Source of the DNA: Candidatus Poribacteria bacterium
GTDB lineage: Bacteria > Poribacteria > WGA-4E > WGA-3G
Reading direction: 5' to 3'
Length of the DNA: 41,489 bases
Assembly (NCBI GenBank): GCA_026706025.1
Contig: JAPOZO010000101.1
Coordinates: 1 to 41,489 of the forward strand
Shown here piece by piece: positions 4,249-30,070 of the stretch; within the stretch, counting starts at the first letter, position 1, and each line of letters opens with the position of its first letter. The notes under the pieces were generated by a model. The model was given only the letters and a program-made list of their open reading frames with translations. It searched no databases and was not told the DNA's origin. Position numbers and translations under genes: made by a program.

Positions 4249-5316
4249 ATGAGAACGCTGGTGACGGTAGCACTTTTGATGTTAGGCGGTGCTGAGATGG
4301 TATCAGTGAAATCTGAAAATGCGACTCAAAAAGAGGAATCCACGATGCAAACAACTTCTGCCCAAGATTTGTCTCACATCATCATTGACTTAGCCACAAG
4401 GAGAGGTGTTCACAGTGTCGCGTTCAGTCCGGACGGTTCAATAGTCGCAAGTGACAAAGATAACACCGTCAAGCTCTGGGATGCTGTCACAGGACAGGAA
4501 ATAGAGATGGAGCAAAATTTCTGGGTGGCTTTTCAGGGAAACTTCACTGCGGATATCAACAGCGTCGCGTTCAGTCCCGATGGACGGATGATCGCAGGTG
4601 GGATCAACGAAAGTGAAGTTATTTGTATTTGGGACGCTGCCACGGGTGAGAACCTCAGATTCATGAAGGAAAATGCGCCGAATGCTTTGCATTGGGTCAA
4701 TACGGTGGCATTCAGTGTCGATAGCAAGATACTCGCAAGTGGCAGTGAGGATGGCAATCTCTATCTGTGGGATGTGGAGACAGGTAGAAGGCTGAAAGCT
4801 CTTACCGAAGATGCGAAGAATATCTTTAGTGTCGCCTTCAGTAGGGACGGCAAAACGTTAGCGAGTGGCGATGCGGGGAACACGATCCGTTTGTGGGATA
4901 TTGCTACCGGTGCGCTATTGAAAACACTCGTTGGGCATACGAATTGGGTCTTCAGCGTTGCTTTCAGTCCAGATGGTCAGACGCTTGCAAGCGGAAGTTG
5001 GGACAAGACCATTCGACTCTGGGATACAACTACAGGGCAGCAACTGAAAGTGCTTACTGGACATACGCTGACTGTGTGGAGTGTCGCGTTCAGTCCGGAT
5101 GGATTAACCCTCGCGAGTGGGAGTCATGACAAGACCATCCGACTCTGGAATGTTGCTACCGGTGCGCACATCGCAACCCTCACGGGGCACACAGCACCTG
5201 TCAAGAGTGTTGCGTTCAGTCCGGGTGTAACGCTTGCAAGCGGCAGTATGGATGGTACAGTCCGTCTATGGGACCTTACGTCTCCTTTGTTATTGCGAAA
5301 AAGGGAAGAAGAATAG
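4249..5316 (+). CDS. Secreted WD40-repeat beta-propeller protein
   Basis: 355 residues with GGAGG 6 nt before the ATG. A short hydrophobic N-terminus (TLVTVALLMLGGAEMVS) suggests export. Seven WD40 units follow from about residue 50, each with a SVAFSPDG-type strand and an (I/V)(R/K)LWD end: four near-consensus copies at about 190-345 (for example TLASGSWDKTIRLWD) and more divergent ones before. Seven units make one closed propeller, a platform for protein-protein contact; no enzyme domain is fused. The last unit lacks the usual D of SPDG (SPGVTLAS). It stands alone with a long repeat-rich leader and converges on the next gene. Ligand unknown. Confidence 0.88.
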   Translation: MRTLVTVALLMLGGAEMVSVKSENATQKEESTMQTTSAQDLSHIIIDLATRRGVHSVAFSPDGSIVASDKDNTVKLWDAVTGQEIEMEQNFWVAFQGNFTADINSVAFSPDGRMIAGGINESEVICIWDAATGENLRFMKENAPNALHWVNTVAFSVDSKILASGSEDGNLYLWDVETGRRLKALTEDAKNIFSVAFSRDGKTLASGDAGNTIRLWDIATGALLKTLVGHTNWVFSVAFSPDGQTLASGSWDKTIRLWDTTTGQQLKVLTGHTLTVWSVAFSPDGLTLASGSHDKTIRLWNVATGAHIATLTGHTAPVKSVAFSPGVTLASGSMDGTVRLWDLTSPLLLRKREEE

Positions 5317-9309: not shown

Positions 9310-10491
9310 TTAAAGAAACTTCGCCACAACTAAGGTAATATCATCATTGACACTTTCGTCTTGTTGATATGCTTGGAGGTCGGACAGAATCTCTGCCTTA
9401 ATCTCCAGCGGAGAGAGATGACGTTTTTCTGAGATGAGTGCTTTGAGACGCTCCAATCCATACATTTCGGCATCTGGATTGAATGCCTCGGTGATGCCAT
9501 CTGAGTAGAGCACGAGCAGATCACCAGAGTGCCACCCCACTTCGGTGCTGTAATATTGTTCTGATTCACTTTCACTGAATCTTGAGAAACCGACCGGCAT
9601 AAACGAGGATTCTAACTCAAGTGGGTCGCCATTGTCTCCACGATAGAGGAGCATCTGCGGGTGACCGGCGTTGGCAAACTCGAACCGGTTGTCTGGATGA
9701 ATAATAAGATAACAGCAGGTCATGTAGATGAAGGTTTGCGAATCTTCTATGACTCGGGTAATGGCTTTCATGACTTCAGGCACGGAAGCGTCAAAGCGGA
9801 TTTGTGTTTGCAAACAACTTTTTGTCATTGCAGCTACCATCGCTGAATGATAGCCGTGCCCCATCACATCGCCGAGGAAAATGGCGATGTTGTTGTCGGA
9901 GAGACGCAAATAGTCATAATAATCGCCACCAACACTGTTCGCCGGTCGGCAATACCCTGCAGAAGAGACATAAGGATGCGAGATTTCTTGATCGGGGAGA
10001 AGAGACTGTTGAACTTCGGCAGCGAGCCGCATTGACTCTTCCTGTGCGACTTCCTTGCGGATGGCACTCATCTGAATCTCAAGGTCGCGCCGGATTTTGT
10101 CATTTAAGACGCGGAACATACCGCTGCCGATCCGTGGCTCACGCGCCATTGCGTTGTAAAAATCGTGCCTCGTGATTCGTAAGAACTGTGTGGATTTCAC
10201 CGTTTTGACGGTAGCACTCCGCGGTTTGTTGTCAATGAGCGCGATTTCACCGAGGCAGTAGCCTTTTTCATTAAAGAACAAGACCTCAGTTCCTGCCTTG
10301 ATGATGCTGACTTCACCATCAACCATCAGATAGAGCGAATCGCCTTCATCACCTTCCTCAAATAGCGTTGCATCGGCAGGGTAAGCGACTTCGTTTGCAA
10401 TCTGACAGATTGATTTTAACTCGGTTTGCGGGAGTTCCGAAAATAGTTCTGTCTTCTGTAAAAACTGTAGTTTATCTGCTTCTGTCAGCAT
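9310..10491 (-). CDS. Cyclic-nucleotide-binding domain fused to SpoIIE/RsbU-type PP2C phosphatase
   Basis: 393 residues. CNB domain about 10-130 (ATLFEEGDEGDSLYLMVDGEV and the phosphate-binding-cassette-like GEIALIDNKPRSATV). A helical linker about 135-170 contains RLAAEVQQSLLPD, the usual start of RsbU-type phosphatases. The phosphatase domain is about 178-392 with metal-binding motifs VGGDYYDY, LGDVMGHGYHSAM, LVLYSDGITEA and NDDITLVVA. Such proteins dephosphorylate a partner, normally a Ser-phosphorylated STAS anti-sigma antagonist, when the sensor binds a ligand. No anti-sigma/STAS pair is nearby, so the partner is elsewhere. The cassette has RSAT, as in cAMP-type sites, but ligand identity is inference. 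Confidence 0.93.
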   Translation of the reverse strand: MLTEADKLQFLQKTELFSELPQTELKSICQIANEVAYPADATLFEEGDEGDSLYLMVDGEVSIIKAGTEVLFFNEKGYCLGEIALIDNKPRSATVKTVKSTQFLRITRHDFYNAMAREPRIGSGMFRVLNDKIRRDLEIQMSAIRKEVAQEESMRLAAEVQQSLLPDQEISHPYVSSAGYCRPANSVGGDYYDYLRLSDNNIAIFLGDVMGHGYHSAMVAAMTKSCLQTQIRFDASVPEVMKAITRVIEDSQTFIYMTCCYLIIHPDNRFEFANAGHPQMLLYRGDNGDPLELESSFMPVGFSRFSESESEQYYSTEVGWHSGDLLVLYSDGITEAFNPDAEMYGLERLKALISEKRHLSPLEIKAEILSDLQAYQQDESVNDDITLVVAKFL

Positions 10492-10681: not shown

Positions 10682-12298
10682 ATGTCAATAACTGATTTTT
10701 TTCGAGGAAAAGTTCTACTCATCACTGGTGGGACCGCATTTTTGGGGCAGCCGTTGGTAGCAAAGGTTTTGACCGCGCTTCCCGATGTCGAAAAGATTTA
10801 CCTCCTCATCCGAAGTCGCACCGATACTTCCGGGAAACGCGTTTCTGCCCAAGAACGGTTAGAAAATGAACTTCTTACCTCGGATGTTTTTGCTTCCCTC
10901 CGTCGTCGGCATGGTGAAAATTTTGATACATGGGCACTGCAGAAACTCGCAGCTGTTGAAGGCGACCTCACCGACGAACGCCTCGGCTTCAGCGATTCCG
11001 ATTACCAGAGGCTCCAGAACGAAGTACAGGTCTTTATTAACGTCGCAGGACTCGTGGATTTCGATCCACCTTTTGATGACTCTTTATGGGGCAACGCGCT
11101 TGCTGCCAAACACGTCGTCAACTTCGCGAAGGGATGCCAAGATACAGTGTTCCTGCATGTCTCAACAGCTTATGTTTGCGGTGACAAGCCCGGACACGTA
11201 CCTGAAGAATTACCACCCCCCTATGAACAATATGCGGTCGCACACCGTGAAAAGACCGGAACATCTATTCCAGAGACGCTTTCTGAGGAAATTGAAGGAT
11301 TGTTATCTCTGAGTACTGCTATTCATGCCGAAGTTGGTTCACCTGAGAATCTTCAACGCTTCCAGCAAGAAGCAGAGCAGCAGACAAAAGGTACCCGCAA
11401 GGCGGTCGATGTGCAAGTTGAAGAACTGAAGGCAGAGTGGCTTGAGAACCGTTTGGTTGAAGCGGGACTGAAGCACGCCCGCTCGCGCGGCTGGAACGAT
11501 ACCTACACCTACATGAAATTCCTCGCTGAACAGATGGTTATGGAATTGCGCGAGGAACTTCCTACCGCTATCGTGCGCCCCTCAATCATTGAAAGCAGCT
11601 TTGATGAACCTGAACCCGGTTGGCTTGGAAAGTTTCGGATGTCCGAACCCTTGATCGTCGGATTTGGAAAGGGTCGCCTTCCAGATTTCCCCGCAGATCC
11701 AAATATTATTCTTGATATTATTCCTGTTGATTTTGTTGTGAACGCTATGTTGGCAGCCGCTGAAGCGATAGCGAAACGCGGTGGTATTGAAGTGTATCAC
11801 ATTGCAACTGGAACACAGAATCCTCTTTACTTTCGCGGTATCTTTGAGGCGACTTACGAGTACTTCGTCAAATATCCGATGTTGGAAAATGGGAAACCGA
11901 TCGCGGTGCCAATATGGGAATACCCAAGTTTAGAGGAATTTCAACGGAAGTTGGATAGCCGTATGCGTCTGGCGAACCTTGCCGTTTATACGCTCGGTAA
12001 GCTCCCGATGCGTGCTGCGAAGCGGAAACGTCGCCAACTTGTGCTTAAGCAGAGCGGTATTAAGGCACTCCTGCATTATATTCGAATTTACGCACCCTAC
12101 ACGCGGACGAGTTTTGAATTTGAGACGCAAAAAATGCAAGGACTTTACGAGGCACTCTCTCCGGCGGAGCAGCAACAGTTTAACTTTGATGTCTCACAAA
12201 TCCATTGGAAACGGTATTTTCAAGAGATACATATCCCCGGTATCAAACGGCATGTATTGAAACTTGAAGATGACACAGAGGACGATTCGGAGGCGTAA
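10682..12298 (+). CDS. Fatty acyl-CoA reductase (alcohol-forming type)
   Basis: 538 residues. It reduces acyl-CoA or acyl-ACP with NADPH towards a fatty alcohol. Rossmann motif at 16-22 is GGTAFLG, where most family members have GxTGFLG; the Gly to Ala change is odd. The SDR catalytic set is VSTAYVCG (160-167) and Y275-T-Y-M-K279. About 108 residues separate these, with the charged helical insert and the GWNDTYTYMKFLAEQM end also seen in Marinobacter-type FARs. IVRPSIIESSFDEPEPGWL follows, then a C-terminal helical FAR domain. It is first in the operon; the next start is 7 bp after its stop. The product may be a fatty alcohol for waxes or ether lipids. Confidence 0.9.
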   Translation: MSITDFFRGKVLLITGGTAFLGQPLVAKVLTALPDVEKIYLLIRSRTDTSGKRVSAQERLENELLTSDVFASLRRRHGENFDTWALQKLAAVEGDLTDERLGFSDSDYQRLQNEVQVFINVAGLVDFDPPFDDSLWGNALAAKHVVNFAKGCQDTVFLHVSTAYVCGDKPGHVPEELPPPYEQYAVAHREKTGTSIPETLSEEIEGLLSLSTAIHAEVGSPENLQRFQQEAEQQTKGTRKAVDVQVEELKAEWLENRLVEAGLKHARSRGWNDTYTYMKFLAEQMVMELREELPTAIVRPSIIESSFDEPEPGWLGKFRMSEPLIVGFGKGRLPDFPADPNIILDIIPVDFVVNAMLAAAEAIAKRGGIEVYHIATGTQNPLYFRGIFEATYEYFVKYPMLENGKPIAVPIWEYPSLEEFQRKLDSRMRLANLAVYTLGKLPMRAAKRKRRQLVLKQSGIKALLHYIRIYAPYTRTSFEFETQKMQGLYEALSPAEQQQFNFDVSQIHWKRYFQEIHIPGIKRHVLKLEDDTEDDSEA

Positions 12299-12305
12299 GT
12301 AGGAT

Positions 12306-14924
12306 ATGCGACCTGAACGGATTGCCCCAAAAACGATTGTAGATCTGATTAAAACACAGGCATCGCGAATTCCTGATAAAGTTGCACTGCTAATGGCAAA
12401 TGAGGGTGAGTGGGAACAGTATACCTATGCGGAGACCTACGCGCTGTCACGCCGGGTTGCGTGGCAGTTGTGGCAAAGCGGTTTGCGCAAAGGTGACCGT
12501 GTTGTTCTCATCTCCGAAAATCAACCTGAGTGGTGTATCGCCTATCTTGCCGCTGTCCAGATTGGTACTGCTGTCGTTCCACTTGACGCGCAAACACCTA
12601 CCCGCGAAATCTTAGCAATTGCCGAGTTCACCGATGCCAAATCAATTTTAGCCTCTGAAAGTGTGTTAGGGCAGTCTGGTAAAGCCTTGTCAGCGGCAGA
12701 ACGGGGTCTACACAACATCAATAAAAACTGTGAAATCGTGGGGGGCAGTACTTCGGATGCTGAGATTCCAACCGATTTCCCTGATGTGGAAGTCACACCA
12801 GATACCGTTGCCTCAATTATCTTCACAATGGGGACTACTGTGGAAGCAAAGGGAGCAATGCTTACGCACGGCGGTTTTATCTCTAACGTGCAAGCGGTTG
12901 CGAAAGCACTCCCACCAACGGACACAGAACGCATCCTGTCGGCACTTCCACTGTATCACGCCTTGAGTTTTTCGTGCAGTCTATTGATGGCACTCTACAG
13001 CGGGACCACGGCAACCTATGTCAATGCGCTCCGTCCGACAACACTCCTGAAGACGATGCGTGAGGCGAAGACAACGGCTTTTATCGGTGTTCCGCGTCTA
13101 TTTCAAATGCTCCAGAGCACGATTGAAAGGCAGGCGGCGCGAGCAGATACACCCGGTGAGACGTTGGCGGAAAAGGCGCAGGCTGTTATGGGTGGTGAGA
13201 TTCGCGTGCTCGTCAGCGGAGGTGCTTCGCTCGCCGATGCCATCTATGACGGATTTCAAAAGTTCGGTATGACGCTTTATCAAGGCTACGGCATGACGGA
13301 GACTGCCCCTGTCCTCAGTGTTAATCCTTATCTAAAAAGCAAGCGCGGGTCGGTCGGTCCGGCAGTGGAGGGGGTAGAACTTCAAATTCAGAATCCAAAC
13401 AGTAACGGCATCGGGGAAATCATCGCTAAGGGACCGAGTACAATGAAAGGGTATTATCAGAACCCTAATGCGACAGAGAAGGCTATCCGCGATGGATGGC
13501 TCTACACGGGTGATCTCGGTTATATGGACGAAGATGGCTACCTCTATCTTACAGGTCACTGTAAAGACATCATCGTTCCAGCTTCTGGAAAGAATGTCTA
13601 TCCTGTTGAATTGGAGGTACTCTATCGGGAGAGTCCTGCTATCTCTGAAATATGTGTTGTCGGTATCCCATACGAAGATGGATCGGATACTGCTATTCAC
13701 GCTGTAATTGTGCCGACGGCATCTGGCGAGACGACAAAAACAGAGATTCATGAACACCTTCAAGCGTGTGCAAAGGCGTTACCGAGTTATCAGCAATTTC
13801 ACAAATTCCATCTTTGGGAGGATGCGCTACCGAAGACTGCAAACGGTAGTATAGATCGGGAACATCTAAGGTGCGGCTTAGAGGCGCATATTAAAGAGAT
13901 GGAGCGTCTACAGGAAGATTCCGCAGCAGAAAGCGAGACTGTAGGCGTACCCAGAATGAATATACCCGAAGAAATTCTCTCTACGCTCGCGAGATTGGCA
14001 CGTATGCCGACACACCAGATTCGCCGAGAAAGCCGTTTGGATACCGATTTAGGGCTTGATTCCCTCACGCGGCTGGATCTATTATTGGTCCTTGAAAACA
14101 GACTTGGCGAGACAATTCCGGATGCACTGCTCGCTAACTTGGAGACGGTGGGTGACGTTGTTGAGTTAATCGAGACATTCCATACAGACGCTGCGCGAGC
14201 AGGAGATGAATATCGCGAAAGAAAAAAAATAGAGTTTAGACAGGTCCCACGATGGTACGCGCGTGCCTTTCGTTCGGTGATTACCGGTATCTACAGAAAC
14301 TATTTCTCGCTGGAGTGCCAAGGGCTTGAACATATCCCGCGAGGGAGACCGTACATTATCATGCCGAATCACACAAGCCATCTTGATACGTTGACGGTGA
14401 TTACGGCTCTCGGAACCAAGGCATACCGACTCTGGACACTCGCCGCGCGGGATTACTGGTTTGCTACTCGCCTTCAAGGATGGTTCGCACGGACATGTCT
14501 CAACGCACTCCCGATAGAGCGGGAAGGCAATTTCACCGAGTTCCTACAGGACTTAAGAGCCGCAAACGAAGTAATGGCACTCAATAACGGTCTGCTTATT
14601 TTCCCTGAAGGTACACGTTCGCTTGATGGCAACCTTCAACCTTTTAAACCGGGGGTCCTGAGTCTGCTTATTTACGGTCCCAATGTTCCGATTATACCGG
14701 CGTATATTGAAGGCACTTACCACGCCTTACCGAAGGGGCAAAATTTGCCTAAGAGGCATCCAGTGCGTATTATTTTTGGCGAACCGCTCACCTTCCCACG
14801 AGAGAGTTGGAGCAGCCAAGATGGGACACCGATTGACCCAGACAGATACCAAGAATTCTTGGACTTGGCACAAAACCGAGTTGCAGAACTTGGAACGATG
14901 CTAAGACAGGAAAAAGACGCTTAG
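12306..14924 (+). CDS. Three-domain fusion: AMP-forming acyl ligase, acyl carrier domain, PlsC-type acyltransferase
   Basis: 872 residues. Residues about 8-530 form an adenylating acyl-CoA/ACP ligase: YQGYGMTETAP, DGWLYTGDLGYMDEDGYLYLTG, and C-terminal NVYPVELE. The P-loop is FTMGTTVEAKG (173-183), altered from the usual YTSGTTGxPKG. Residues about 555-625 form an acyl carrier domain with LGLDSL, where Ser586 would hold phosphopantetheine. Residues about 640-865 form a glycerolipid acyltransferase with NHTSHLD (688-694) and FPEGTRS (766-772). The protein would charge a fatty acid, hold it on its own carrier and pass it to a lysolipid or similar acceptor. It resembles Aas with a built-in ACP. 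It lies between FAR and HAD genes in one operon. RBS AGGAT is very close to the ATG. Confidence 0.93.
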   Translation: MRPERIAPKTIVDLIKTQASRIPDKVALLMANEGEWEQYTYAETYALSRRVAWQLWQSGLRKGDRVVLISENQPEWCIAYLAAVQIGTAVVPLDAQTPTREILAIAEFTDAKSILASESVLGQSGKALSAAERGLHNINKNCEIVGGSTSDAEIPTDFPDVEVTPDTVASIIFTMGTTVEAKGAMLTHGGFISNVQAVAKALPPTDTERILSALPLYHALSFSCSLLMALYSGTTATYVNALRPTTLLKTMREAKTTAFIGVPRLFQMLQSTIERQAARADTPGETLAEKAQAVMGGEIRVLVSGGASLADAIYDGFQKFGMTLYQGYGMTETAPVLSVNPYLKSKRGSVGPAVEGVELQIQNPNSNGIGEIIAKGPSTMKGYYQNPNATEKAIRDGWLYTGDLGYMDEDGYLYLTGHCKDIIVPASGKNVYPVELEVLYRESPAISEICVVGIPYEDGSDTAIHAVIVPTASGETTKTEIHEHLQACAKALPSYQQFHKFHLWEDALPKTANGSIDREHLRCGLEAHIKEMERLQEDSAAESETVGVPRMNIPEEILSTLARLARMPTHQIRRESRLDTDLGLDSLTRLDLLLVLENRLGETIPDALLANLETVGDVVELIETFHTDAARAGDEYRERKKIEFRQVPRWYARAFRSVITGIYRNYFSLECQGLEHIPRGRPYIIMPNHTSHLDTLTVITALGTKAYRLWTLAARDYWFATRLQGWFARTCLNALPIEREGNFTEFLQDLRAANEVMALNNGLLIFPEGTRSLDGNLQPFKPGVLSLLIYGPNVPIIPAYIEGTYHALPKGQNLPKRHPVRIIFGEPLTFPRESWSSQDGTPIDPDRYQEFLDLAQNRVAELGTMLRQEKDA

Positions 14925-14935
14925 AAAGGTTTATC

Positions 14936-15616
14936 ATGTCGGTTCCAGCCCCGAAAAAGACAGCTGCATTTTTCGATGTAGATGGCACTTTATTGAAGTC
15001 CACAATTGTGCATTGCTACATCTGGATACGATCTTTACAGATTCCGTTCTTTCTAAAACACTTGTGGCTCATCGGGTTTCTCCCCAAAATTGTGTACTAT
15101 CTGATTTTGGACAGTATAAGTCGAATCCGTTTCAATCAGGTGTTTTATCGTAACTATCGTGGGAAAAATGCTGCCGAGATTAAAGCGTTGTCTACAAAGA
15201 TATTCGAGGCTTACATTCGTCCCAAAATTTTCTCGGAAGCGGTATCTCAAATTCAAGAACATAAAGAACAGGGGGCAGCTGTGGTTCTCGTAACTGGATC
15301 GCTTGATTTTATCGTCCAACCCATCGCGGATTATCTTGGTGTTGATTCTGTATTGGCACCGCAACTTCGTGAAGAGGACGGGCAGTTTACTGGTGAACTC
15401 ACAACCGCACCTCTCATCGGTGACGAAAAAGCGAAAGCGATGCGCAACTACGCCGATCAACACGAAATTTCACTCGAGGAAAGTTATGCTTACGGCGATA
15501 GTCAATCCGATCTCCCAATGTTGGAATGTGTTGGAAATCCTGTTGTCGTGAATCCAGCAAAATCACTTCGCCAGAAAGCATCTGCATCTGGGTGGGAGAT
15601 GCACGAATGGCTTTGA
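14936..15616 (+). CDS. HAD-superfamily phosphatase, subclass IB (SerB/CicA-like)
   Basis: 226 residues. Motif I FFDVDGTLL, nucleophile D14 and acid D16; motif II VLVTGS about residue 119-124; motif III lysine in GDEKAKAM about 160-167; motif IV GDSQSDLPM from 187, with D188 and D192. The cap contains a hydrophobic stretch (about 36-58, FLKHLWLIGFLPKIVYYLIL) that could lie on or in the membrane, suiting a lipid phosphate substrate. AAAGG precedes the ATG, 11 bp after the acyltransferase fusion stop. In some bacteria such HAD proteins pair or fuse with PlsC acyltransferases. Likely substrate: a lysophosphatidate- or phosphatidate-type lipid; inferred from context only. Confidence 0.87.
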   Translation: MSVPAPKKTAAFFDVDGTLLKSTIVHCYIWIRSLQIPFFLKHLWLIGFLPKIVYYLILDSISRIRFNQVFYRNYRGKNAAEIKALSTKIFEAYIRPKIFSEAVSQIQEHKEQGAAVVLVTGSLDFIVQPIADYLGVDSVLAPQLREEDGQFTGELTTAPLIGDEKAKAMRNYADQHEISLEESYAYGDSQSDLPMLECVGNPVVVNPAKSLRQKASASGWEMHEWL

Positions 15617-15715: not shown

Positions 15716-15928
15716 ATGAATGTGAGACGTTATTTTGAATCCATGTCTGAACCCAACGATACGATGTTTGTTGAAATTGGGGATAGACACCGATTTACCC
15801 GTCGTGGGGACGATTGGGTTAAATTCCGCGCGGATCTGATTGAACTCTTGGAGCAGACGATTTCTGAGGAGTTGTCTCAGGAATTCGAGGCAGCGACCAA
15901 AGATTGGGTTTCAGAGGGTTCTCCATAG
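15716..15928 (+). CDS. Small uncharacterised acidic protein
   Basis: 70 residues with a strong RBS (AAGGAG, 7 nt). MNVRRYFESMSEPNDTMF then helical, charged sequence, no cysteines, membrane segment or known motif. It follows the HAD gene by 99 bp, a gap holding fragments of the dispersed palindromic repeat, so it may be on a separate transcript or the last gene of the lipid operon. Function unknown. Confidence 0.62.
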   Translation: MNVRRYFESMSEPNDTMFVEIGDRHRFTRRGDDWVKFRADLIELLEQTISEELSQEFEAATKDWVSEGSP

Positions 15929-15965: not shown

Positions 15966-16913
15966 ATGTCAAATCCAATTACTGATGCACAGGCGTTAGA
16001 AACAAAGGGCGAATTCGCTGAAGCCATCCAAGCCTACGACGACATCCTCAATACAACGGACGACGCGTCAACCCTCGCGCTGGCTAATTTCCGACTGGGT
16101 ACTATCTATCAGGAATGGCGAGAACTTTTCACAGCACAACGGTTTTTTGCACAGGCACATCAACTTGACCCAAGTAATGCCAACATCCGGGATGCGATCA
16201 CTGAACTCAATCAGCATTTTTCAGAGAATCGGGAGGCGGTTGCCGATGAGATGTCCCGCAAAAACAGCGACCAGATTGTGTCCCTCTTCCGTATTGCTAC
16301 CGGGATTAAACTCCTGACGATGGAGAAACCCGTACAAGCCTACCCGTTGCTAAAAAGTCGAACCAAGATTTTCCCGAATGCCGCCATGGCGAAGCATCTC
16401 CTCACCGATATCCAGATCACGGAAGATGAGCGAAACGCAGCGATCAATTTCCTATTAGAAAGGGATTGGCTCGTGAATACAGGTGCATTGCTTTATACAA
16501 TCACAGAAAAGGGGTTATATAACTTTTATGTTGAACTTGCGCAGCTGCACATCGCCAACGCCGCTTGGACGGAAGCGGTAATGTGTTATGAGCAGACATG
16601 TTGGCTGGATCCAGAACAGCAGTATCCGCGCTACCAACTCGTTATCTGTCATGCAGGGGTAGAGGCTTGGGATGTAGCTGTCCGGATTATTGCGGAACTT
16701 TCGGCTGAAGTTCCAGAAGGTGTAGACCCTATCGCATACCATACTGCTGTGGCGCAGAGTTATCACTATGTTTATCAAACTACACAAGACGAGGAGACGA
16801 AACAGAAAGTGATTGAGGCGTGTGAGGCGGTATTGCGTTTGGACAAAAAGGCGAAGGAGATTTCAAAACTCCTCGCCTCCTATCAGGGCAAAAAAGCGTG
16901 GTGGCGTAGGTAG
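15966..16913 (+). CDS. TPR-repeat protein
   Basis: 315 residues, cytoplasmic (no signal). Tandem helix pairs in TPR style: ALETKGEFAEAIQAYDDILN (about 9-28), NFRLGTIYQEWRELFTAQRFF, then about 180-240 YVELAQLHIANAAWTEAVMCY and later pairs up to VIEACEAVLRLDKKAKEI. TPR arrays bind partner proteins; there is no catalytic domain. RBS AGGAAG, 37 bp after the small acidic gene. Partner unknown. Confidence 0.8.
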   Translation: MSNPITDAQALETKGEFAEAIQAYDDILNTTDDASTLALANFRLGTIYQEWRELFTAQRFFAQAHQLDPSNANIRDAITELNQHFSENREAVADEMSRKNSDQIVSLFRIATGIKLLTMEKPVQAYPLLKSRTKIFPNAAMAKHLLTDIQITEDERNAAINFLLERDWLVNTGALLYTITEKGLYNFYVELAQLHIANAAWTEAVMCYEQTCWLDPEQQYPRYQLVICHAGVEAWDVAVRIIAELSAEVPEGVDPIAYHTAVAQSYHYVYQTTQDEETKQKVIEACEAVLRLDKKAKEISKLLASYQGKKAWWRR

Positions 16914-20109: not shown

Positions 20110-21996
20110 TTATTTTCCCCAACCGCCGCCTTGTGGCGGTTTTCTTTTTTGCAGAATAACTCGGTCGCCTTCGGTGGCACCGCTTGTGATAACGACTTTC
20201 GTCTCGTTTTGCATGCCTGTTTCAACGGGCGTTCTCTTGCCTTTAGCACTGCCATCATCCAACATGACGAACTTCCCTTTTGAGACATTTACCTGGGCGC
20301 GGACACCGTCGGCTTCCTTTTTCCCTTTGATCAGAAGTGATACAGTCGAGGGGCCTGGCATAATCCCACGTTGGCTGCTATCCAAACTGATGGTGACGCT
20401 ACCGTCCCCAACGCTCTCAACCGTGCCATTGAATATCTTCTCGCTAATGGTCTGCATCTCAATGGGTTGCTTCGGTTTGAAAGGAGATGTATTACCCACC
20501 AGTGCGTTGACCGTCACACGTTTTTCGTTGATGAGGGCATCAATGGGCACCATGAGTACATTTTTCTCCTCGTAGGTGATGATGTCAACATCTGTGCTCA
20601 TACCGGGTTTGAGTTCCTCTGGGGATCCAAGTACTTCTATCATTACCTCAAAAGAGATGATATTGTCCTGTTGCTGTCCACTGGGCGATATCTCATAAAC
20701 CCTACCTTCGTATGTTTTGGTCTGGTAGGCATCGACTTTGATTTCTGCTCGTTGTCCGTCTTTCAACCGTTCCATATCCACTTCGTTGATGAAGGTTTTG
20801 ACGACCATTTTTGATGGGTCAACGATGGTCATCAACGGTGGACTTTGCGAGAATGCTGAACGTCCGGAAGTCACGATTTCACCCTCTTCAAGTTCGAGAA
20901 GTGTGATGATTCCTGCCATAGGAGCCTTGATGGTCGTCCATTCCAGCCGTTCTGTCTGGTTTTTCAGCGTACTCTCGCGTCGGAGTCGATTGGCGTCGGC
21001 ACTCACTCTGGATTGCTCGGTTAGAGATTTCTCGTTTTCAAGAGTGAGATTCAATTCGTCTAAACGGGTTCGAGAATTTTCGACGCGGAGTCTGGCTTCT
21101 TCTTCTGAATTTTTCCGCATCTTTTTCAGATCTTCAAGGTTGTGCTTCTGGTTTTCCAATGTTAATTCGCGTGATGCTATGGAAGTTTCTCGTACTTTAA
21201 TCGTTCTTTGCTGTGAAGTGATCGTCTGTTTCTGTGATTCCACCCGTTTTTCGGCGTTTTCATATTGCACCTTGGCGTTCACGTGTCCAGCTTGCGCGTC
21301 TTCCAACGCTTTTTTGGAAACCAATTCCTTGTCATAAAGTTCGGTATTTCGATCGAGTTCCGATTTCGCGTTATCCCAGGCAATCTTGGCTGAATTTAGT
21401 GATGTCTCCTGTTCAGACAGTGTGATTTTTGCCTGTTCAAGCGCGATTCGGGCTTGCTCCAGAGCGATGTTATCTTGGTCAAGTGAGTTTTTCGCGGTCA
21501 GAATGTCTGTTTCTGCTTGATTGATTTGTGTTATGGTTGAGGCTTGTGTCGTCTCAAAATTCGCCTGAGCGATTTTAAAGTCGGATTCAGCCTGAACCAA
21601 CTGGCTTTCGAGGCGTTCCTTTTTGAGTAAGATGTTCAGATCCGCCTGCTTGAGTTGCGCTTTAGCAGCTCGGACATCCGCTTCCGCCTGTTTTTTTTCT
21701 TCCTCATAGAGTTCGGGATCGAGTTCTATCAGGACTTGACCTTCTTCTACGTATTCACCGTTTTTAACATGAAGTCCAACGATCTCACCTTCGACGTTGG
21801 ATTTGACCTCTACGTCAATAAGCGGTTCTAGGTTGCCGGTGGCGCGGATACTCATTTGGAAATCGCCGCGTTCAACGACCTCGACTTTTTTCAATGCAGC
21901 CGGATCGGCACCGTTTTTGCTACGTCCAAGCACAACCCAACCGATTGCTACAACGAGGACCAAGACAACGGCGACAGTAATAATTAGATTTTTCAA
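20110..21996 (-). CDS. MacA/HlyD-type periplasmic adaptor with very long coiled-coil
   Basis: 628 residues, much longer than the usual 370-400 for MacA. Start TTG 21996 with AGGAGGG upstream. One N-terminal membrane anchor (about 4-24). Lipoyl half-motifs flank a huge coiled-coil: VEVKSNVEGEIVGLHVKNGE at the front and TIKAPMAGIITLLELEEGEI at the back. About 250 residues between them (about 85-345) are Glu/Gln/Lys-rich heptads. Beta-barrel and membrane-proximal domains follow. It would bridge a MacB-type permease and an outer-membrane channel. It is last in a run of permease genes on the same strand, 98 bp after the 438-residue permease. The long hairpin suggests a wide periplasmic span. Confidence 0.9.
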   Translation of the reverse strand: MKNLIITVAVVLVLVVAIGWVVLGRSKNGADPAALKKVEVVERGDFQMSIRATGNLEPLIDVEVKSNVEGEIVGLHVKNGEYVEEGQVLIELDPELYEEEKKQAEADVRAAKAQLKQADLNILLKKERLESQLVQAESDFKIAQANFETTQASTITQINQAETDILTAKNSLDQDNIALEQARIALEQAKITLSEQETSLNSAKIAWDNAKSELDRNTELYDKELVSKKALEDAQAGHVNAKVQYENAEKRVESQKQTITSQQRTIKVRETSIASRELTLENQKHNLEDLKKMRKNSEEEARLRVENSRTRLDELNLTLENEKSLTEQSRVSADANRLRRESTLKNQTERLEWTTIKAPMAGIITLLELEEGEIVTSGRSAFSQSPPLMTIVDPSKMVVKTFINEVDMERLKDGQRAEIKVDAYQTKTYEGRVYEISPSGQQQDNIISFEVMIEVLGSPEELKPGMSTDVDIITYEEKNVLMVPIDALINEKRVTVNALVGNTSPFKPKQPIEMQTISEKIFNGTVESVGDGSVTISLDSSQRGIMPGPSTVSLLIKGKKEADGVRAQVNVSKGKFVMLDDGSAKGKRTPVETGMQNETKVVITSGATEGDRVILQKRKPPQGGGWGK

Positions 21997-22094: not shown

Positions 22095-23411
22095 CTAATC
22101 GGTCCGAAGTGCCTCGACAGGTGTCAATTTCGCTGCCTTGTTGGCAGGGTATAACCCGAAGAAGACACCGATTGCGACAGAGACGAGTAACGCAATCACC
22201 ATCGTTCCAAATGAGATGACCGAGGGCCAGTTGCTACCTTCCCAGACGAACTTAGAGATGAGTGCAGCTGTACCGCGCCCCATAAAGACACCTAAGATCG
22301 CACCAAGAATACCCCCCGCAAGCGTCAGCACCGATGCCTCGATCAAGAATTGGGCTAAAATATCGTTCCGCGTAGCACCGAGTGCTTTCCGGAGCCCAAT
22401 TTCCTTTGTCCGATCAGTGACAGAGACGAGCATAATATTCATCACGCCGATACCCGCGACCATGAGCGCGATAGCAGCGATGCCGCCCATCAAGGCTTTC
22501 ATGACCAAGCCGACCTTATTGGCGGTTGCTAATTCCTCTGTAGCTGTCCAATAGTTATATTCTTCACCGGTGTTGTTGTGCTGTCTCCCTAATATATCTT
22601 TGGCATCCACTATTGCGGTGGGGATAGTATCAACATCAACGGCTTCGACACGGATGCGTTCAACGTCTTGGCGTCCTTTGAAACGCTGTTGGAGTGTGGT
22701 TATCGGAATAATGAACCGGTCATCCCAACCGGAAGTATCCATTGCGTCGCCTTTCTCTTCCATCACACCAATCACTTTGAGACGTACCTCATAAAGTCCA
22801 CTCATTCCGCGCCAATAAGACGGACGCGAGGCTTTGATTTCTCTCCCTATAGGGTCTTCTTCAAGGAAGACTTCTTCGGCAATTTTCGAGCCAATCACAG
22901 CGACGCTACTCGCAGCTTCCACCTCTTCAGCGGTGAAGAATCTACCACTTGAGGGGTACCAGTTATGCGATCGGTCGTATCCAGCGGTTGAGGCGACGAT
23001 ACGGGATTCCTTTGATCGTCCTTTATAATTCACGTTCCATCCGCCCATATCATCCTCAGCAACGACATCAATAACACCGCGGGCATACTTTAAGATCTCA
23101 AAAGCATCCTCGGTTTCCAAGTTCTCGGCGCGATTCCTTTGCCAGCGGCCTCTGCCGCGTACGGCTTCCCCAGCTGCGCGACTCAGTGTTCCAGACTGTT
23201 TGTCCCAATCGTCTTTATAGATTTCAATGATTTTCGTACCACCGGTTCGCTCAATCTCACGTAGAACCATGGCACTTGATCCGTCTCCGACGGATACCAT
23301 GCTGACAACGGATCCAACACCCACGATAATCCCTAAGATCGTCAAGGCGGAGCGGAGCGGGTTTCGCCGCAAACTCGAAATCCCTAAAATGATACATTCA
23401 ATCAAATTCAT
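22095..23411 (-). CDS. MacB-like ABC transporter permease (FtsX/MacB domain), divergent member
   Basis: 438 residues. TM1 about 18-40 (LRSALTILGIIVGVGSVVSM), a large periplasmic MacB_PCD domain about 45-285, then three TM helices about 312-430. The family coupling motif VSVTDRTKEIGLRKALGATRNDI lies between TM2 and TM3. No ATP-binding domain, unlike full MacB. It is clearly different from the three 433-residue copies upstream. GGAGG precedes the ATG and overlaps the stop region of the preceding gene (12-bp gap), so it is co-transcribed. Moves a substrate such as a lipid, peptide or lipoprotein with a separate ATPase. Confidence 0.93.
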   Translation of the reverse strand: MNLIECIILGISSLRRNPLRSALTILGIIVGVGSVVSMVSVGDGSSAMVLREIERTGGTKIIEIYKDDWDKQSGTLSRAAGEAVRGRGRWQRNRAENLETEDAFEILKYARGVIDVVAEDDMGGWNVNYKGRSKESRIVASTAGYDRSHNWYPSSGRFFTAEEVEAASSVAVIGSKIAEEVFLEEDPIGREIKASRPSYWRGMSGLYEVRLKVIGVMEEKGDAMDTSGWDDRFIIPITTLQQRFKGRQDVERIRVEAVDVDTIPTAIVDAKDILGRQHNNTGEEYNYWTATEELATANKVGLVMKALMGGIAAIALMVAGIGVMNIMLVSVTDRTKEIGLRKALGATRNDILAQFLIEASVLTLAGGILGAILGVFMGRGTAALISKFVWEGSNWPSVISFGTMVIALLVSVAIGVFFGLYPANKAAKLTPVEALRTD

Positions 23412-23423
23412 TTATAGTGCCTC

Positions 23424-24725
23424 CTACTCGGCACGTAGTGCTTCGATCGGTGAGAGTGCTGATGCTTTTATTGCAGGATATAGCCCGAAAGAGATACCGA
23501 TTATGGCTGAAAATGACACGGAAATCAGTATCCACTGTGTGGAGATAACCGAGGGCCATTCGGGTACAATTTGGACGATTTTAACAGCAAGGAGTGCCAT
23601 CCCTTCACCAGCAAATAGACCTACCAGAACCCCGATTGCCCCTCCGACAGCACACATAGCAACGGCTTCTATTAAGAACTGCACCAGAATGTCCGCACGT
23701 TTTGCCCCGAGTGCTTTTCGGAGCCCAATCTCACGCGTGCGTTCGGTTACAGCGACCAACATCATGTTCATAATGCCGATGCCACCGACGAGAAGCGAGA
23801 ACCCTGCGATACTCCCAAGTGCGATTTTTATGACTTTACCGATTTTCTCCAATTGCGCCATGCCTTCGCGCATATCCCTGAGCGAAAAGAAATCGTCTTG
23901 GTTCTTATGCCGTTTCCGCATAACGGCTTTCACCTCTTCAATCGCTTGTGGAACCTCTTCAACGGTATTGGCGTGGACGGAAAGCATCATAATCCTATCG
24001 TTGCCCGTGAAACGTTTCTGTGTTGTTGTGAGTGGGAGAAAGACCATGTCATCCAAGTTCCACCCAAATCGTAGGCTTCGCCCGCGGGGTGCCATCGTTC
24101 CGACGACGGTAAACCGTTCTGTTAAGCGATTTTCTTCCTTTCGCCCGTACCGGCTATACCGATCGCCGCCTCTGCTAATCTTAATTTCTTGACCTATAGG
24201 TGAGGCGTTACCGAATAAGGTCATCACAACCTCTGTACCTAATACACAGACTTTTGTTTCGTTTTCAATATCTTCTTCAGAAATGAACCGGCCTTGCACA
24301 ACGTCCCAATCCATCGCCTCCGCGAACGTGTAGTTTACGCCGTTATAGCCTGTTCGTGCTTCAGAGCCATCGGCGACTTGGACGAGGACACCTCGCCATT
24401 CTGGAATTCGCGGCACGACAACCTCCACAGATGGACATTCCGCTTCAATCGCTAACACGTCTTCAAATTCAAAGTATTCGTTGCTACGGTTCGGCATCCA
24501 ACGACTTCCAACCCGTTTGTAAGAACTGCGGTACATCGTAAACTGATTCACACCGCCTAATTTCTCTGCGTCTTGCAGCACAATCGCCTTGGCACCATCC
24601 CCGATAGCGATCATCGCCAGTACCGCGGCCACACCGATGATAATACCGAGCATGGTAAGCAAGGAGCGCAACTTATTGCTGCGAATCGCAGAAACTCCAA
24701 CAGATAACCCTTCAAATATACGCAT
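23424..24725 (-). CDS. MacB-like ABC transporter permease, paralog 1
   Basis: 433 residues: TM1 about 18-40 (LRSLLTMLGIIIGVAAVLAM), periplasmic MacB_PCD domain about 45-280, three C-terminal TM helices, and VAVTERTREIGLRKALGAKRADI in the cytoplasmic loop. Closely related to the next two genes along their whole length, with the same length and the same GLYPAIKAS..PIEALR end. No ATPase domain. GGAGG before the ATG. Most of its difference from the others is in the periplasmic domain, where partner or substrate binding would occur. Confidence 0.93.
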   Translation of the reverse strand: MRIFEGLSVGVSAIRSNKLRSLLTMLGIIIGVAAVLAMIAIGDGAKAIVLQDAEKLGGVNQFTMYRSSYKRVGSRWMPNRSNEYFEFEDVLAIEAECPSVEVVVPRIPEWRGVLVQVADGSEARTGYNGVNYTFAEAMDWDVVQGRFISEEDIENETKVCVLGTEVVMTLFGNASPIGQEIKISRGGDRYSRYGRKEENRLTERFTVVGTMAPRGRSLRFGWNLDDMVFLPLTTTQKRFTGNDRIMMLSVHANTVEEVPQAIEEVKAVMRKRHKNQDDFFSLRDMREGMAQLEKIGKVIKIALGSIAGFSLLVGGIGIMNMMLVAVTERTREIGLRKALGAKRADILVQFLIEAVAMCAVGGAIGVLVGLFAGEGMALLAVKIVQIVPEWPSVISTQWILISVSFSAIIGISFGLYPAIKASALSPIEALRAE

Positions 24726-24911
24726 TTCTCGCCTCCAAATTAAGTGTGTTCCTATGCTTAATTTTTAGACAAAGAAGGGTAAACAAAGTTCGCTTTTTTT
24801 GGAATAATTTTCTTAGAGGCGATCCTAAATTGCGATTTTCATGAAACTGACCACTTCATTAGACGCAATCCCCTGAAATCGGTTTAGTATTCCGTATTGT
24901 GTTGGCGTGGG

Positions 24912-26213
24912 CTATTCCGTGCGGAGTGCTTCAATCGGCGAGAGCGATGATGCTTTTACCGCAGGATATAACCCGAACAAGATACCGATCACAGCCGAAA
25001 ACGACACGGAGATCAATATCCATTGCGTAGAGATAACAGCGGGCCATTCGGGTACGATTTTGGCGATTTTGACGGCGAGCATTGCCATGCCTTCACCAGC
25101 AAAGATACCCAACCCAATGCCGATTGCGCCGCCGACACTGCATATGACAATAGCTTCCATCAAGAACTGTGCCAGAATATCGAAGGGTTTAGCACCGAGA
25201 GCCTTGCGTAAGCCGATCTCGCGGGTTCGCTCACTCACAGCGACGAGCATCATATTCATAATACCAATACCACCGACGAGGAGTGAAAACCCTGCGATAC
25301 TGCCCAAGGCGATTTTAATCATCTTACTAATTTTCTCTAATTGTGCCATGCCTGAACGCATCTCAAAGATTCCAACGAATTTATCGTCGCCCTTGTGCCG
25401 CTTTCGGATAACTGTTTTTACCTCCTCAATTGCCTTCGGGACATCCGCGACGGTATGCGCGTAGACGACGATATCCTGAATTCGGTTATCGCCCGTGAAC
25501 CGTTCTTGGACTGTAGAGATCGGTATAAAGACGAGATTATCGTAACTCCAACCGAACCGGAGGCTTCGCCCGCGAGGCATCATTGTTCCGACGACCGTGA
25601 ACCGTTCTGTGGAGCGTTTACTGTCTCTACGTCCCCATCGGTCATAACGACCACTCCCTTTTGCGATTTTGATCTCCTGTCCCAAAGGCGACTTGTCGCC
25701 GAAGAGTTCAGTAACGACTTCTTCGCCGAGGACACAGATTTTCGTTGAATTTTCGACATCTGCGTCTGTAATAAAACGTCCCTCTTGAACATCCCAATCC
25801 ATTGCGGTTGGATAGGCGGCATCTACGCCGTTATAGCCTGCGCGGGTTTCGGTTCCGTCAGCGGTTTGAATTAACAACCCTTTCCAATCTGGGATTCGAG
25901 GTGTGACTGCCCTGACCGACGGACATTCGGCTTCAATCGCGAGGACATCTTCATATTCCATGTATTCGTTGCTACGGATGCGAATCCAGCGTCCACCTTC
26001 TCGTTTATACGACGTTCGATACATTGTGAACTGGTTCGCGCCGCCTAATTTTTGTGCATCTTGTAGCACAATTATCTTGGCACCATCACCGATAGCTATC
26101 ATTGCCAGCACTGCAGCGACGCCGATGATAATACCGAGCATTGTAAGCAACGAGCGCATCTTATTTGCGCGGATAGCGGAGATTCCGATGGAGAGTCCTT
26201 CAATTAGACGCAT
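24912..26213 (-). CDS. MacB-like ABC transporter permease, paralog 2
   Basis: 433 residues with the layout of paralog 1. Begins MRLIEGLSIGISAIRANKMR; coupling motif VAVSERTREIGLRKALGAKPFDI. It is nearer to paralog 3 than to paralog 1 by eye (shared EGRFITD, GYNGVDA and FAGEGMAMLAVKIAKIVPEW). The start has GGAAAC about 5 nt upstream, a modest RBS. A 186-bp A/T-rich gap separates it from paralog 1, so it may have its own transcript. Confidence 0.93.
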   Translation of the reverse strand: MRLIEGLSIGISAIRANKMRSLLTMLGIIIGVAAVLAMIAIGDGAKIIVLQDAQKLGGANQFTMYRTSYKREGGRWIRIRSNEYMEYEDVLAIEAECPSVRAVTPRIPDWKGLLIQTADGTETRAGYNGVDAAYPTAMDWDVQEGRFITDADVENSTKICVLGEEVVTELFGDKSPLGQEIKIAKGSGRYDRWGRRDSKRSTERFTVVGTMMPRGRSLRFGWSYDNLVFIPISTVQERFTGDNRIQDIVVYAHTVADVPKAIEEVKTVIRKRHKGDDKFVGIFEMRSGMAQLEKISKMIKIALGSIAGFSLLVGGIGIMNMMLVAVSERTREIGLRKALGAKPFDILAQFLMEAIVICSVGGAIGIGLGIFAGEGMAMLAVKIAKIVPEWPAVISTQWILISVSFSAVIGILFGLYPAVKASSLSPIEALRTE

Positions 26214-26361
26214 ATAATGTTTCCAAAACCTTTAAAATTATGTATTGATTGTAGTCACGTTGTTTGGATTAATTAGACGTAATTAAGCGAAATAGGTTTA
26301 TAGCGGTTAATCTCTGATTCTGGATTGATGTCGGTTCTGGGGATGGAAATGAAAAAATTAA

Positions 26362-26382
26362 GGCGCGCTTTCTGAGCGCGCC
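26362..26382 (-). terminator. Rho-independent terminator after permease paralog 3
   Basis: Perfect 8-bp G/C-rich stem GGCGCGCT / AGCGCGCC with a 5-nt loop; on the minus strand it is followed by TTAATTTTTTC. It lies 32 bp after the stop of the 26414-27715 gene. Confidence 0.72.
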
Positions 26383-26413
26383 TACAAGAACAGATGTTAC
26401 TTGAATGCTGGGT

Positions 26414-27715
26414 TTAGTCTGTGCGTAGAGCCTCCTTGGGCTGGAGCATAGAGGCTTTTATGGCAGGATAGAGTCCAAAGGAGATACCGATCGCCGCGGA
26501 GAACGATACCGAGATGAGTACCCACTCCATAGAGACGACGGCGGGCCATTCGGGCACAATTTTAGCGATTTTGACGGCGAGCATCGCCATACCTTCGCCG
26601 GCAAAGATACCTAATCCAACGCCAATTGCGCCACCAACACCACACATGATTACGGCTTCTATCAAGAATTGAAGTAGGATATCTAAAGGTTTGGCACCGA
26701 GTGCTTTTCGTAAGCCGATCTCGCGCGTACGTTCAGTGACGGCGACTAACATCATATTCATAATACCGATGCCACCGACGAGGAGCGAGAACCCGGCGAT
26801 GCTGCCTAAGGCGACTTTAATCACCTTGCTGATTTTTTCTAATTGTGCCATGCCTGAACGCATCGCCCGAATTCTAACGAAGTCATCTTGGTCTCTATGT
26901 CGTTTTCTGATGACTGTTCTCACTTCTTCAATTGCTTTCGGGATAACGTCAATGGTGTTTGCAAAAACCATAATGTCCCCAATCCTATCGTTACCGGTGA
27001 AGCGTTCTTGTACGGTTGATATAGGGATAAAAGCGAGATTGTCGTAGCACCAGCCGAACTGGAGACTGGTACCCCTTTGCACCATTGTCCCAACAACCGT
27101 GAGGCGTTCGGTGGATCGCCTGCTTGCCCTCCGTCCCCATTGATCGCGGTAGCGAATCCTTTTTACAATTTTGATTTCTTGTCCGATCGGAGATTGATTA
27201 CCAAACAGTTCGGTCGCGAGTTCATCACCCAGTACACAGATTCTTGCTGCGTTTTCGACATCTCCATCTGTAATGAAGCGTCCCTCTTTGACATCCCAAC
27301 CCATTGCGGTTGTATAGGTGGCATCTACGCCGTTATAACCGGCGTAGGCTTCAGTACCATCCGAGGCTTGAAACAAAACGCCTCTCCAGTCGGCAAGTCG
27401 AGGCGTGACTGCGCTCACGGAAGGGCATTCTGCTTCGATTGCCAATACATCTTCGTATGCCATGTATTCACTGCTACGGATGCGGATCCATCTGTTATTT
27501 TCGCGTTTGTATGATGTATGGTAGAGTGTGAATCGGGTCGCGCCGCCTAACTTTTGGACATCCTGTATTACAATTTCTTTAGCACCATCACCAATGGCGA
27601 TCATTGCCAGGACCGCTGCGATACCGATGATAATTCCTAACATCGTTAATAGCGAACGCATTTTGTGCGCTCGAATTGCAGCGACCCCAATAGATATTCC
27701 TTCAATTAAACGCAT
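26414..27715 (-). CDS. MacB-like ABC transporter permease, paralog 3
   Basis: 433 residues, same architecture: TM1 (LLTMLGIIIGIAAVLAMIAI), periplasmic domain, three C-terminal TMs, VAVTERTREIGLRKALGAKPLDI. Differs from paralog 2 mainly in the periplasmic part (for example VKRIRYRDQWGRRASRRSTE). AGGAG 5 nt before the ATG. It is the first gene of the array on the minus strand and is cut off from the others by a good terminator, so it is likely a single-gene transcript. No ATPase domain. Confidence 0.93.
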   Translation of the reverse strand: MRLIEGISIGVAAIRAHKMRSLLTMLGIIIGIAAVLAMIAIGDGAKEIVIQDVQKLGGATRFTLYHTSYKRENNRWIRIRSSEYMAYEDVLAIEAECPSVSAVTPRLADWRGVLFQASDGTEAYAGYNGVDATYTTAMGWDVKEGRFITDGDVENAARICVLGDELATELFGNQSPIGQEIKIVKRIRYRDQWGRRASRRSTERLTVVGTMVQRGTSLQFGWCYDNLAFIPISTVQERFTGNDRIGDIMVFANTIDVIPKAIEEVRTVIRKRHRDQDDFVRIRAMRSGMAQLEKISKVIKVALGSIAGFSLLVGGIGIMNMMLVAVTERTREIGLRKALGAKPLDILLQFLIEAVIMCGVGGAIGVGLGIFAGEGMAMLAVKIAKIVPEWPAVVSMEWVLISVSFSAAIGISFGLYPAIKASMLQPKEALRTD

Positions 27716-28099: not shown

Positions 28100-30070
28100 A
28101 TGTTTAAATGTATGCTATCAATCCTTGCATTGCTCCTTGCCAATTTAATATCTTTTTCTTTTTTCACAACAGTTTTAGTTGACGAGAAAGGGCGGGCAAA
28201 GCAGGTTGAAACAGTAGATATAGATCCAAAAGTTTTAGCAAATATCTATCCACAAGAAACCACGATTGCTTTACCATCCGATGCAGTTGCGCGATTTGGA
28301 AGAGGCGGTAGATCCCATGTCGCGGTGTCGCCAGATGGAAGTCTCATGGCTGTAGCATCCAGTGTTGGTGTATGGCTCTATTCCGCTTACACCGATGAAT
28401 TTTTATCGCTACTCTCTTCTGAACATAGGCGTATTCCATCAACAGTCGCTTTTTCACCCGATAGTGCCCAAGTTGCTATTGGATATAGGGACGGTCGTGT
28501 AATATTGTGGAATGTTTTTATTGAAAACGTTGAGGCGGATCTTCCCATCTTTCTTCATGGTGGTGCTGTGACCTCGGTTACATTCTCACCCGATGGAGAA
28601 CTCTTAGCGATAGGGAGTTCGGACAATAGTGCTACGTTATGGGATGTTGCTGATAGGGCAATCCGCTTCACCTTCAAACATGAAGATTCTATAAGGGTAG
28701 TCCTGTTTTCGCCAGATGGTAGACGCTTGGCTACAGGCAGTATGGATGGGACCACAAAGTTGTGGGACATTGAAACTGGGAAGCAGCTCCGATCTTTTGC
28801 GCACCCGGACCACCATAAATCTGTCACATTTCCGTCCGGTCACACCATGCCCTACAATGAAGGGGGTATTCGTTGCGTCGCGTTTTCACCCGATGGCAAA
28901 CTTTTGGCAACGGGTGGTATCCATCAGGACAGAGATATTAAATTGTGGGATATTGCGCTTGGAAAACAACGTTGGTCTGTTACCCACGCAGAATCGGCTA
29001 AATCTATCACATTTTCACCGGATGGAACGCTTATCGCAACGTACTTCTCCGACGAGGTTGTTCATGTATTAGGGGTTGAGGATGGTACACCTATCGCTCT
29101 TGATCCAGATACGGAAGCGTGGATTCGCAGAAACGCGAAGAAACTACCTGCGGAACATACGTCGGAGGGAGGGCATGTCGAATTTTCACCGGATGGAAAA
29201 TATCTCATCAGTCTTAGCGCGAACAATACAATCAGGGCGCGAGATATTAAAACTGCGGCACATGTCAAAACACTCACAAGTACTGGTGGGTACACTAAGA
29301 CAGTGGCACTCTCATCTGAAGGAGACTATCTTGGGATTAGCATTATGCCTGAAAACACAGTCAAACTTTGGGGCGCGGAAATTGTCGTCCTTTTTCGACA
29401 CGAGACGCGGGTTATGGCTGCTGAAATATCGGACGATGCGACATTGTTAGCGACCGGAGGGAAGGACAAAAAGGTCAGACTTTGGAACGTGGAAACTGAG
29501 GAACTTCAGCAGACATTGTCCGGTCATATAGGTCCCATTAAAACACTTGCCTTTTCGCCTGATGGCACACTTCTGGTGAGTAGTGGTAGCCGCAATTGGG
29601 AAGAACAGGAAGGTCACAATGGCATCACCTATATCCTTTCCCTGCGCGATAGTATTGTGGATAGAACGGCTAAGGTATGGGATGTAGCAACGGGGGAAAA
29701 TATTGCTACCTTTAAACATCTGGATGAAGTCAGAGCGATAGCGTTTTCGCCTGATGGCACACTTCTCGCTACGAGTGCTGGCAGAACCGATATCCGATCT
29801 ACAAAAACTTGGCAAGATATTGCAACGCTGAGTACAGTCAACGCAACATGCCTCACATTTTCGCCTGATGGCACCCGCATCGCTGTCGGTATGAGTGGAC
29901 GGCAACCGACGGTTCAAATATGGGATATAGCGACAAGAAAGCCTATTGCAACATTCATCGGACACAAGCGCGGTATTCAATCTCTCGCTTTTTCGCCTGA
30001 TAGTCGTCTGCTTGCAAGTGGCGGTTCTGATGGAGTTACCTATTTGTGGGATGTAACATCCTATAGGTAG
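28100..30070 (+). CDS. Large WD40-repeat protein, probably two propellers, membrane-anchored or secreted
   Basis: 656 residues. N-terminal hydrophobic segment (about 5-26, MLSILALLLANLISFSFFTT) for export or anchoring; AAGGA about 11 nt before the ATG. About thirteen FSPDG-type strands run from about residue 72 (VAVSPDGSLMAVAS) to the C-terminus, several ending in (L/V)WD. Thirteen to fourteen blades fit two seven-bladed propellers. Some units are degraded or have insertions (the long segment with EEQEGHNGITYILSLRD). No catalytic domain. It converges with the nitrilase gene 10 bp away. The role is a scaffold; the partner is unknown. Confidence 0.88.
   Translation: MFKCMLSILALLLANLISFSFFTTVLVDEKGRAKQVETVDIDPKVLANIYPQETTIALPSDAVARFGRGGRSHVAVSPDGSLMAVASSVGVWLYSAYTDEFLSLLSSEHRRIPSTVAFSPDSAQVAIGYRDGRVILWNVFIENVEADLPIFLHGGAVTSVTFSPDGELLAIGSSDNSATLWDVADRAIRFTFKHEDSIRVVLFSPDGRRLATGSMDGTTKLWDIETGKQLRSFAHPDHHKSVTFPSGHTMPYNEGGIRCVAFSPDGKLLATGGIHQDRDIKLWDIALGKQRWSVTHAESAKSITFSPDGTLIATYFSDEVVHVLGVEDGTPIALDPDTEAWIRRNAKKLPAEHTSEGGHVEFSPDGKYLISLSANNTIRARDIKTAAHVKTLTSTGGYTKTVALSSEGDYLGISIMPENTVKLWGAEIVVLFRHETRVMAAEISDDATLLATGGKDKKVRLWNVETEELQQTLSGHIGPIKTLAFSPDGTLLVSSGSRNWEEQEGHNGITYILSLRDSIVDRTAKVWDVATGENIATFKHLDEVRAIAFSPDGTLLATSAGRTDIRSTKTWQDIATLSTVNATCLTFSPDGTRIAVGMSGRQPTVQIWDIATRKPIATFIGHKRGIQSLAFSPDSRLLASGGSDGVTYLWDVTSYR

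Follow-up and report, generated by a model that had tools for sequence, protein, structure and literature searches.

A probable ElbD-type ether-lipid cassette in Poribacteria with its large enzyme split between two adjacent genes

Poribacteria are bacteria known from marine sponges. The stretch of DNA analysed here (the window, 41,489 nt) is a MAG contig from a poribacterial genome (G000) assembled as 6.27 Mb in 103 contigs. Three closely spaced genes and their neighbours are considered, with Pfam E-values in brackets.

9310 to 10491, reverse strand: cNMP-binding and SpoIIE-type phosphatase protein, divergently transcribed, conserved next to the cassette at most of the family's loci
10682 to 12298, forward strand: ORF1, fatty acyl reductase (FAR), 538 aa, corresponding to the FAR region at the N terminus of fused ElbD-type proteins; NAD_binding_4 (PF07993, Rossmann; 1.8e-62) and Sterile/FAR_C (PF03015; 1.4e-15)
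12299 to 12305, forward strand: fission junction, a 7-bp gap left over from former linker codons, as comparison with relatives shows
12306 to 14924, forward strand: ORF2, fusion of acyl-CoA/ACP synthetase (ACS), ACP and PlsC-type acyltransferase (AT), 872 aa; AMP-binding (4.9e-74), AMP-binding_C (1.2e-9), PP-binding (3.8e-9) and Acyltransferase (1.2e-21)
14936 to 15616, forward strand: ORF3, ElbB-like HAD-IB phosphatase, 226 aa, whose cap is helical and hydrophobic; HAD (1.7e-37)
15716 to 15928, forward strand: small ORF of 70 aa lying between the HAD and TPR genes, matching no Pfam family, conserved at this position in relatives (tblastn, 60-99% identity)
15966 to 16913, forward strand: TPR protein, a conserved neighbour

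The ORF positions and the Pfam domains agree with the first-pass annotation, which had placed three genes with these functions here, 7 bp (ORF1 to ORF2) and 11 bp (ORF2 to ORF3) apart. This spacing, together with derivation from a single ORF, predicts that the three share one transcript. The 70-aa ORF is a possible fourth member of the operon, and the cNMP-binding/SpoIIE-type phosphatase gene is a candidate regulator of the cassette. Scans for promoters and terminators gave results at about the level of shuffled sequence and were uninformative, and an Rfam search of the window returned no match. Elsewhere in the window, an unusual fusion ORF of 625 aa (36957 to 38834, reverse strand) combines ECF-type sigma-70 regions 2 and 4 with a Kelch propeller; four tandem MacB/FtsX-type permease genes, three of them mutually 68-78% identical, lie at 22095 to 27715 (reverse strand), followed by an HlyD-type protein at 20110 to 21996; and two WD40 propeller proteins are present (4249 to 5316 and 28100 to 30070, both forward strand).

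Residues S161, Y275 and K279 of the FAR are kept in all 54 sequences covering those positions. In ORF2, Ser586 of the ACP and H689, D694, E768 and R771 of the AT are invariant (55 sequences), as is the A10 Lys510 (54 sequences). The HAD protein scores above the cut-off of TIGR01490 (HAD-IB), and its DxDGT and DSxxD motif residues are invariant in 15 sequences. The closest solved relative of the FAR, with which it has its fold in common, is rice DPW (7eoz), a plastid fatty acyl-ACP reductase (phmmer 5.2e-79). This structure was also the best Foldseek match of the FAR model (pLDDT 84.7; E 8.7e-36; 29% identity in the structural alignment); next came CAR and NRPS enzymes, matched in their thioester reductase domains (13-17% identity). 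DPW is, however, a plant enzyme of pollen-wall synthesis, and is not in an operon with an ACS-ACP-AT protein. The AT domain of ORF2 matches PlsC (5kym), and the HAD model (pLDDT 94) has the fold seen in 3fvv and phosphoserine phosphatases.

Myxococcus xanthus ElbD, from the elb cluster (MIBiG BGC0000871), has the domain order FAR-ACS-ACP-AT, and its operon also contains a HAD gene, elbB (PMC9131029). Compared by published description, these four functional domains are present in identical order in the cassette, across the two adjacent ORFs of the window and within one ORF in sister lineages. The likeness to ElbD, which had been noted as functional only, therefore extends to the domain order, and close relatives encode the whole as one ORF. 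The domain comparison that had been suggested as a check recovers FAR, ACS, ACP and AT in the published order, over two ORFs. An HAD-IB gene directly downstream, after 11 bp, is a further feature in common with the elb operon; the window HAD is likened to ElbB, an HAD-superfamily phosphohydrolase, by family and position. In M. xanthus, too, elbB stands apart from elbD as a gene of its own, so the ElbD equivalent here is split over two genes, not over the three that had been proposed. M. xanthus ElbD is one polypeptide, whereas in the window the FAR and ACS-ACP-AT parts are in separate genes, with stops between them and a shifted frame, and the locus is therefore regarded as a split ElbD-type system rather than as ElbD itself. 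The elb operon also differs in including elbA/elbE (NAD epimerase/dehydratase). No elbE/elbA-type gene was seen among the ORFs scanned on the contig, on which there is a single PF07993 match.

Clusters of the elbD type have been reported in sponge Poribacteria and Acidobacteriota, including a poribacterial ElbD homologue (PMC9426513). In these VEPE-related clusters, Poribacteria MAGs included, the elbD homologue is flanked by hydrolases and dehydratases, and the core gene is described as holding all of the domains (PMC9426513), and no mention of a split form was found there. Given the published ElbD order and these reported clusters, the cassette is of a known kind; no report of the split form was found in the literature.

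Comparison across Poribacteria supports this assignment. The gene order FAR, ACS-ACP-AT, HAD recurs at 36-98% identity, with few loci lacking an adjacent HAD, and is therefore not due to chance. The majority of Poribacteria examined have FAR and ACS-ACP-AT in a single ORF of about 1,420-1,500 codons, usually with the HAD next. Orthologues from the same genus or family with 79-86% identity are single ORFs of about 1,435-1,505 codons; the examples L021, L033 and L043 (about 1,435-1,470 codons) are 78-87% identical over both parts and have the same neighbours. The two-ORF form was found in 11 loci of the lineage of the window (the window, L016-L020, L022, L026, L046, L048 and L049), and together with six fused sister loci (L021, L023, L024, L025, L027 and L042) these form one clade with full support. 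The tree does not settle whether the split loci are monophyletic, and the AU test does not reject a single origin (p-AU 0.456). The shared context of the stop and ATG argues for one fission event. Deep relatives (family f7, L093-L097; 36-43% identity) also have two genes, a state that may be ancestral or the result of an older fission, and no elbE-type gene was seen among the scanned ORFs flanking them. Downstream of the HAD in L093 (10840 to 17469) are genes for a DNA methylase-like protein, a zinc alcohol dehydrogenase, a LarA-like protein, a YegS/DAGK lipid kinase and CstA; this region is partly matched by L096, which has the alcohol dehydrogenase, and by L095, which has CstA, and the remaining ORFs correspond by size only. 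A plasmid search returned remote ACS-type matches only; the sole match over >80% of the query was to an AMP-binding protein of Ilyobacter, whose annotated neighbours include no FAR.

Median dN/dS values, which are approximate since they come from pairwise Nei-Gojobori estimates with dS near 1, are 0.079 (FAR), 0.104 (ACS-ACP-AT) and 0.122 (HAD) for the split loci, and 0.065, 0.093 and 0.121, respectively, for the fused loci. On these estimates, both halves of the split gene remain under purifying selection, with catalytic residues intact.

The manner of the split can be read from the junctions. In fused Poribacteria ElbD-type proteins the single ORF runs through a flexible linker without a TAG. 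Four of the split loci (L022, L026, L046 and L048) retain a 129-nt linker, equal in length to that of the fused sisters, with one in-frame TAG and a new ATG two codons after it; the fused linker ...DESEESVAEPERI... has here become ...DESEA*(G/D)MRxE(R/Q/W)I.... In the window the junction reads gcg TAA gTAG gat ATG, and the linker is shortened and the frame shifted, as in L016. L017-L020 and L049 instead have an enlarged linker region in which TTAATGGTTAATAGTT-like repeats abound. Each new ATG, that of the window included, is closely preceded by a GGAGG within the former linker coding stretch. Judged from these alignments, fission is shown to have occurred as the linker acquired a nonsense codon and a fresh ATG start, with a GGAGG from the old linker coding sequence placed to act as a putative ribosome-binding site. 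Readthrough of the stop codons to restore the fusion was considered as well. It may occur at the four loci with one in-frame TAG; it need not be invoked for the split form, given the shifted frame in the window, L016-L019 and L049 and the several linker stops in L020.

As the window lies on a MAG contig, an assembly or frameshift artefact in one MAG, with the gene really being fused, also has to be weighed. This is extremely improbable, as the split is found in 11 loci whose junctions diverge, showing several stops and gaps that reach about 220 nt, and one of these loci (L020, OX639973.1) is in a 6.66-Mb single-contig chromosome. The independent assemblies refute an artefact of a single one.

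The locus is thus probably an ElbD-type ether-lipid cassette in which gene fission has divided the large enzyme into FAR and ACS-ACP-AT proteins, next to an ElbB-like HAD phosphatase. In such a cassette, the ACS domain would adenylate a fatty acid and load it on to its own ACP, both of which M. xanthus ElbD has been shown to do. As a separate protein, the FAR would reduce the acyl thioester with NADPH to a fatty alcohol, possibly via the aldehyde, as suggested by its FAR_C domain and its kinship with DPW. According to PMC5711870, DPW converts fatty acyl-ACP to fatty alcohol, an activity that would suit a FAR drawing its substrate in trans from the ACP of ORF2. The alcohol or aldehyde would then supply a glycerol ether with its alkyl chain, a step for which the cassette has no recognised enzyme. 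To judge by their families, the PlsC domain would acylate a lysophosphatidate-type intermediate and the HAD protein would take the phosphate off a lipid phosphate.

In animals, the ether bond is formed by AGPS (alkyl-DHAP synthase). No AGPS orthologue was found in the window genome or in five closed relatives. The three full-length FAD-oxidase_C proteins of the genome have D-lactate dehydrogenase or glycolate oxidase as best match, far above AGPS; a fourth, weak FAD-oxidase_C match adjoins a glycolate-oxidase-like gene, and the set in the five closed relatives is identical. Likewise, PF09989, which we take to be a marker of Ger in the anaerobic Ger/PlsA plasmalogen pathway, had no match in the window genome and was detected in controls. 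The CarF plasmalogen desaturase (PF10520) gave no match over the cut-off in 85 genomes, with no control genome detected either; of the products first suggested for the locus, plasmalogen-like lipids of the CarF type are tentatively disfavoured. Wax was another of those products, and it is possible to read the cassette as one for fatty alcohols or wax esters, in which the alcohol from the FAR is esterified for storage and no ether is made. A FAR with FAR_C is of the alcohol-forming type, and the searches for AGPS and the Ger marker, which would point to an ether route, found neither. On the other hand, WS/DGAT (PF03007) was found in none of 85 Poribacteria genomes, with no control genome detected either, and the fixed pairing with a PlsC domain and an HAD phosphatase points to a glycerolipid; classical wax esters are tentatively disfavoured, and a cassette of this type is unlikely.

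Ordinary phospholipid remodelling or acyl recycling, as by the Aas-type acyltransferase/acyl-ACP synthetases, with the aldehyde or alcohol from the FAR put to some other use, is likewise quite unlikely. The presence of ACS and PlsC on one protein does recall Aas, and PRK08633 is among the NCBIfam matches, far below its cut-off. The FAR, however, is fused in most relatives, adjacent in the rest, and under purifying selection, indicating that reduction belongs to the function of the cassette.

For the ElbD-type reading, ether lipids are a plausible, as yet unproven, product. As AGPS, Ger, CarF and WS/DGAT were not found in the genomes searched, an ether, if made, would have to come from ElbD alone or from an unrecognised enzyme. 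In M. xanthus, disruption of elbD or elbE lowers ether lipids, while the effect of elbB disruption was put down to polarity; loss of the AGPS homologue there removes few ether lipids, and an attempt to demonstrate the FAR and acyltransferase activities of ElbD in vitro failed (PMC9131029). In cultured Pontiella, which has elbD homologues, ether lipids were not detected (PMC11868695), a reason for caution. Either ElbD-type proteins suffice with an unrecognised partner, as the M. xanthus genetics hint, or the product is not an ether. It may tentatively be proposed, as a conjecture that could easily prove wrong, that Poribacteria make alkyl-ether glycerolipids with the ElbD-type cassette in the absence of AGPS and Ger, that ElbD-type proteins form the ether bond or hand on to an unrecognised enzyme, and that the FAR need not be covalently tethered to the ACP for this.

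Judged from its conservation, the cassette is real and under selection, and is an architectural variant of the ElbD system with an unproven product. It is a clear example of gene fission in which the nonsense codon lies in a variable linker, next to a GGAGG. The split could also help to show how ElbD makes ether lipids: FAR and ACS-ACP-AT occur here as naturally separate proteins that can be compared with close fused sisters, and AGPS was not found in the genomes concerned.
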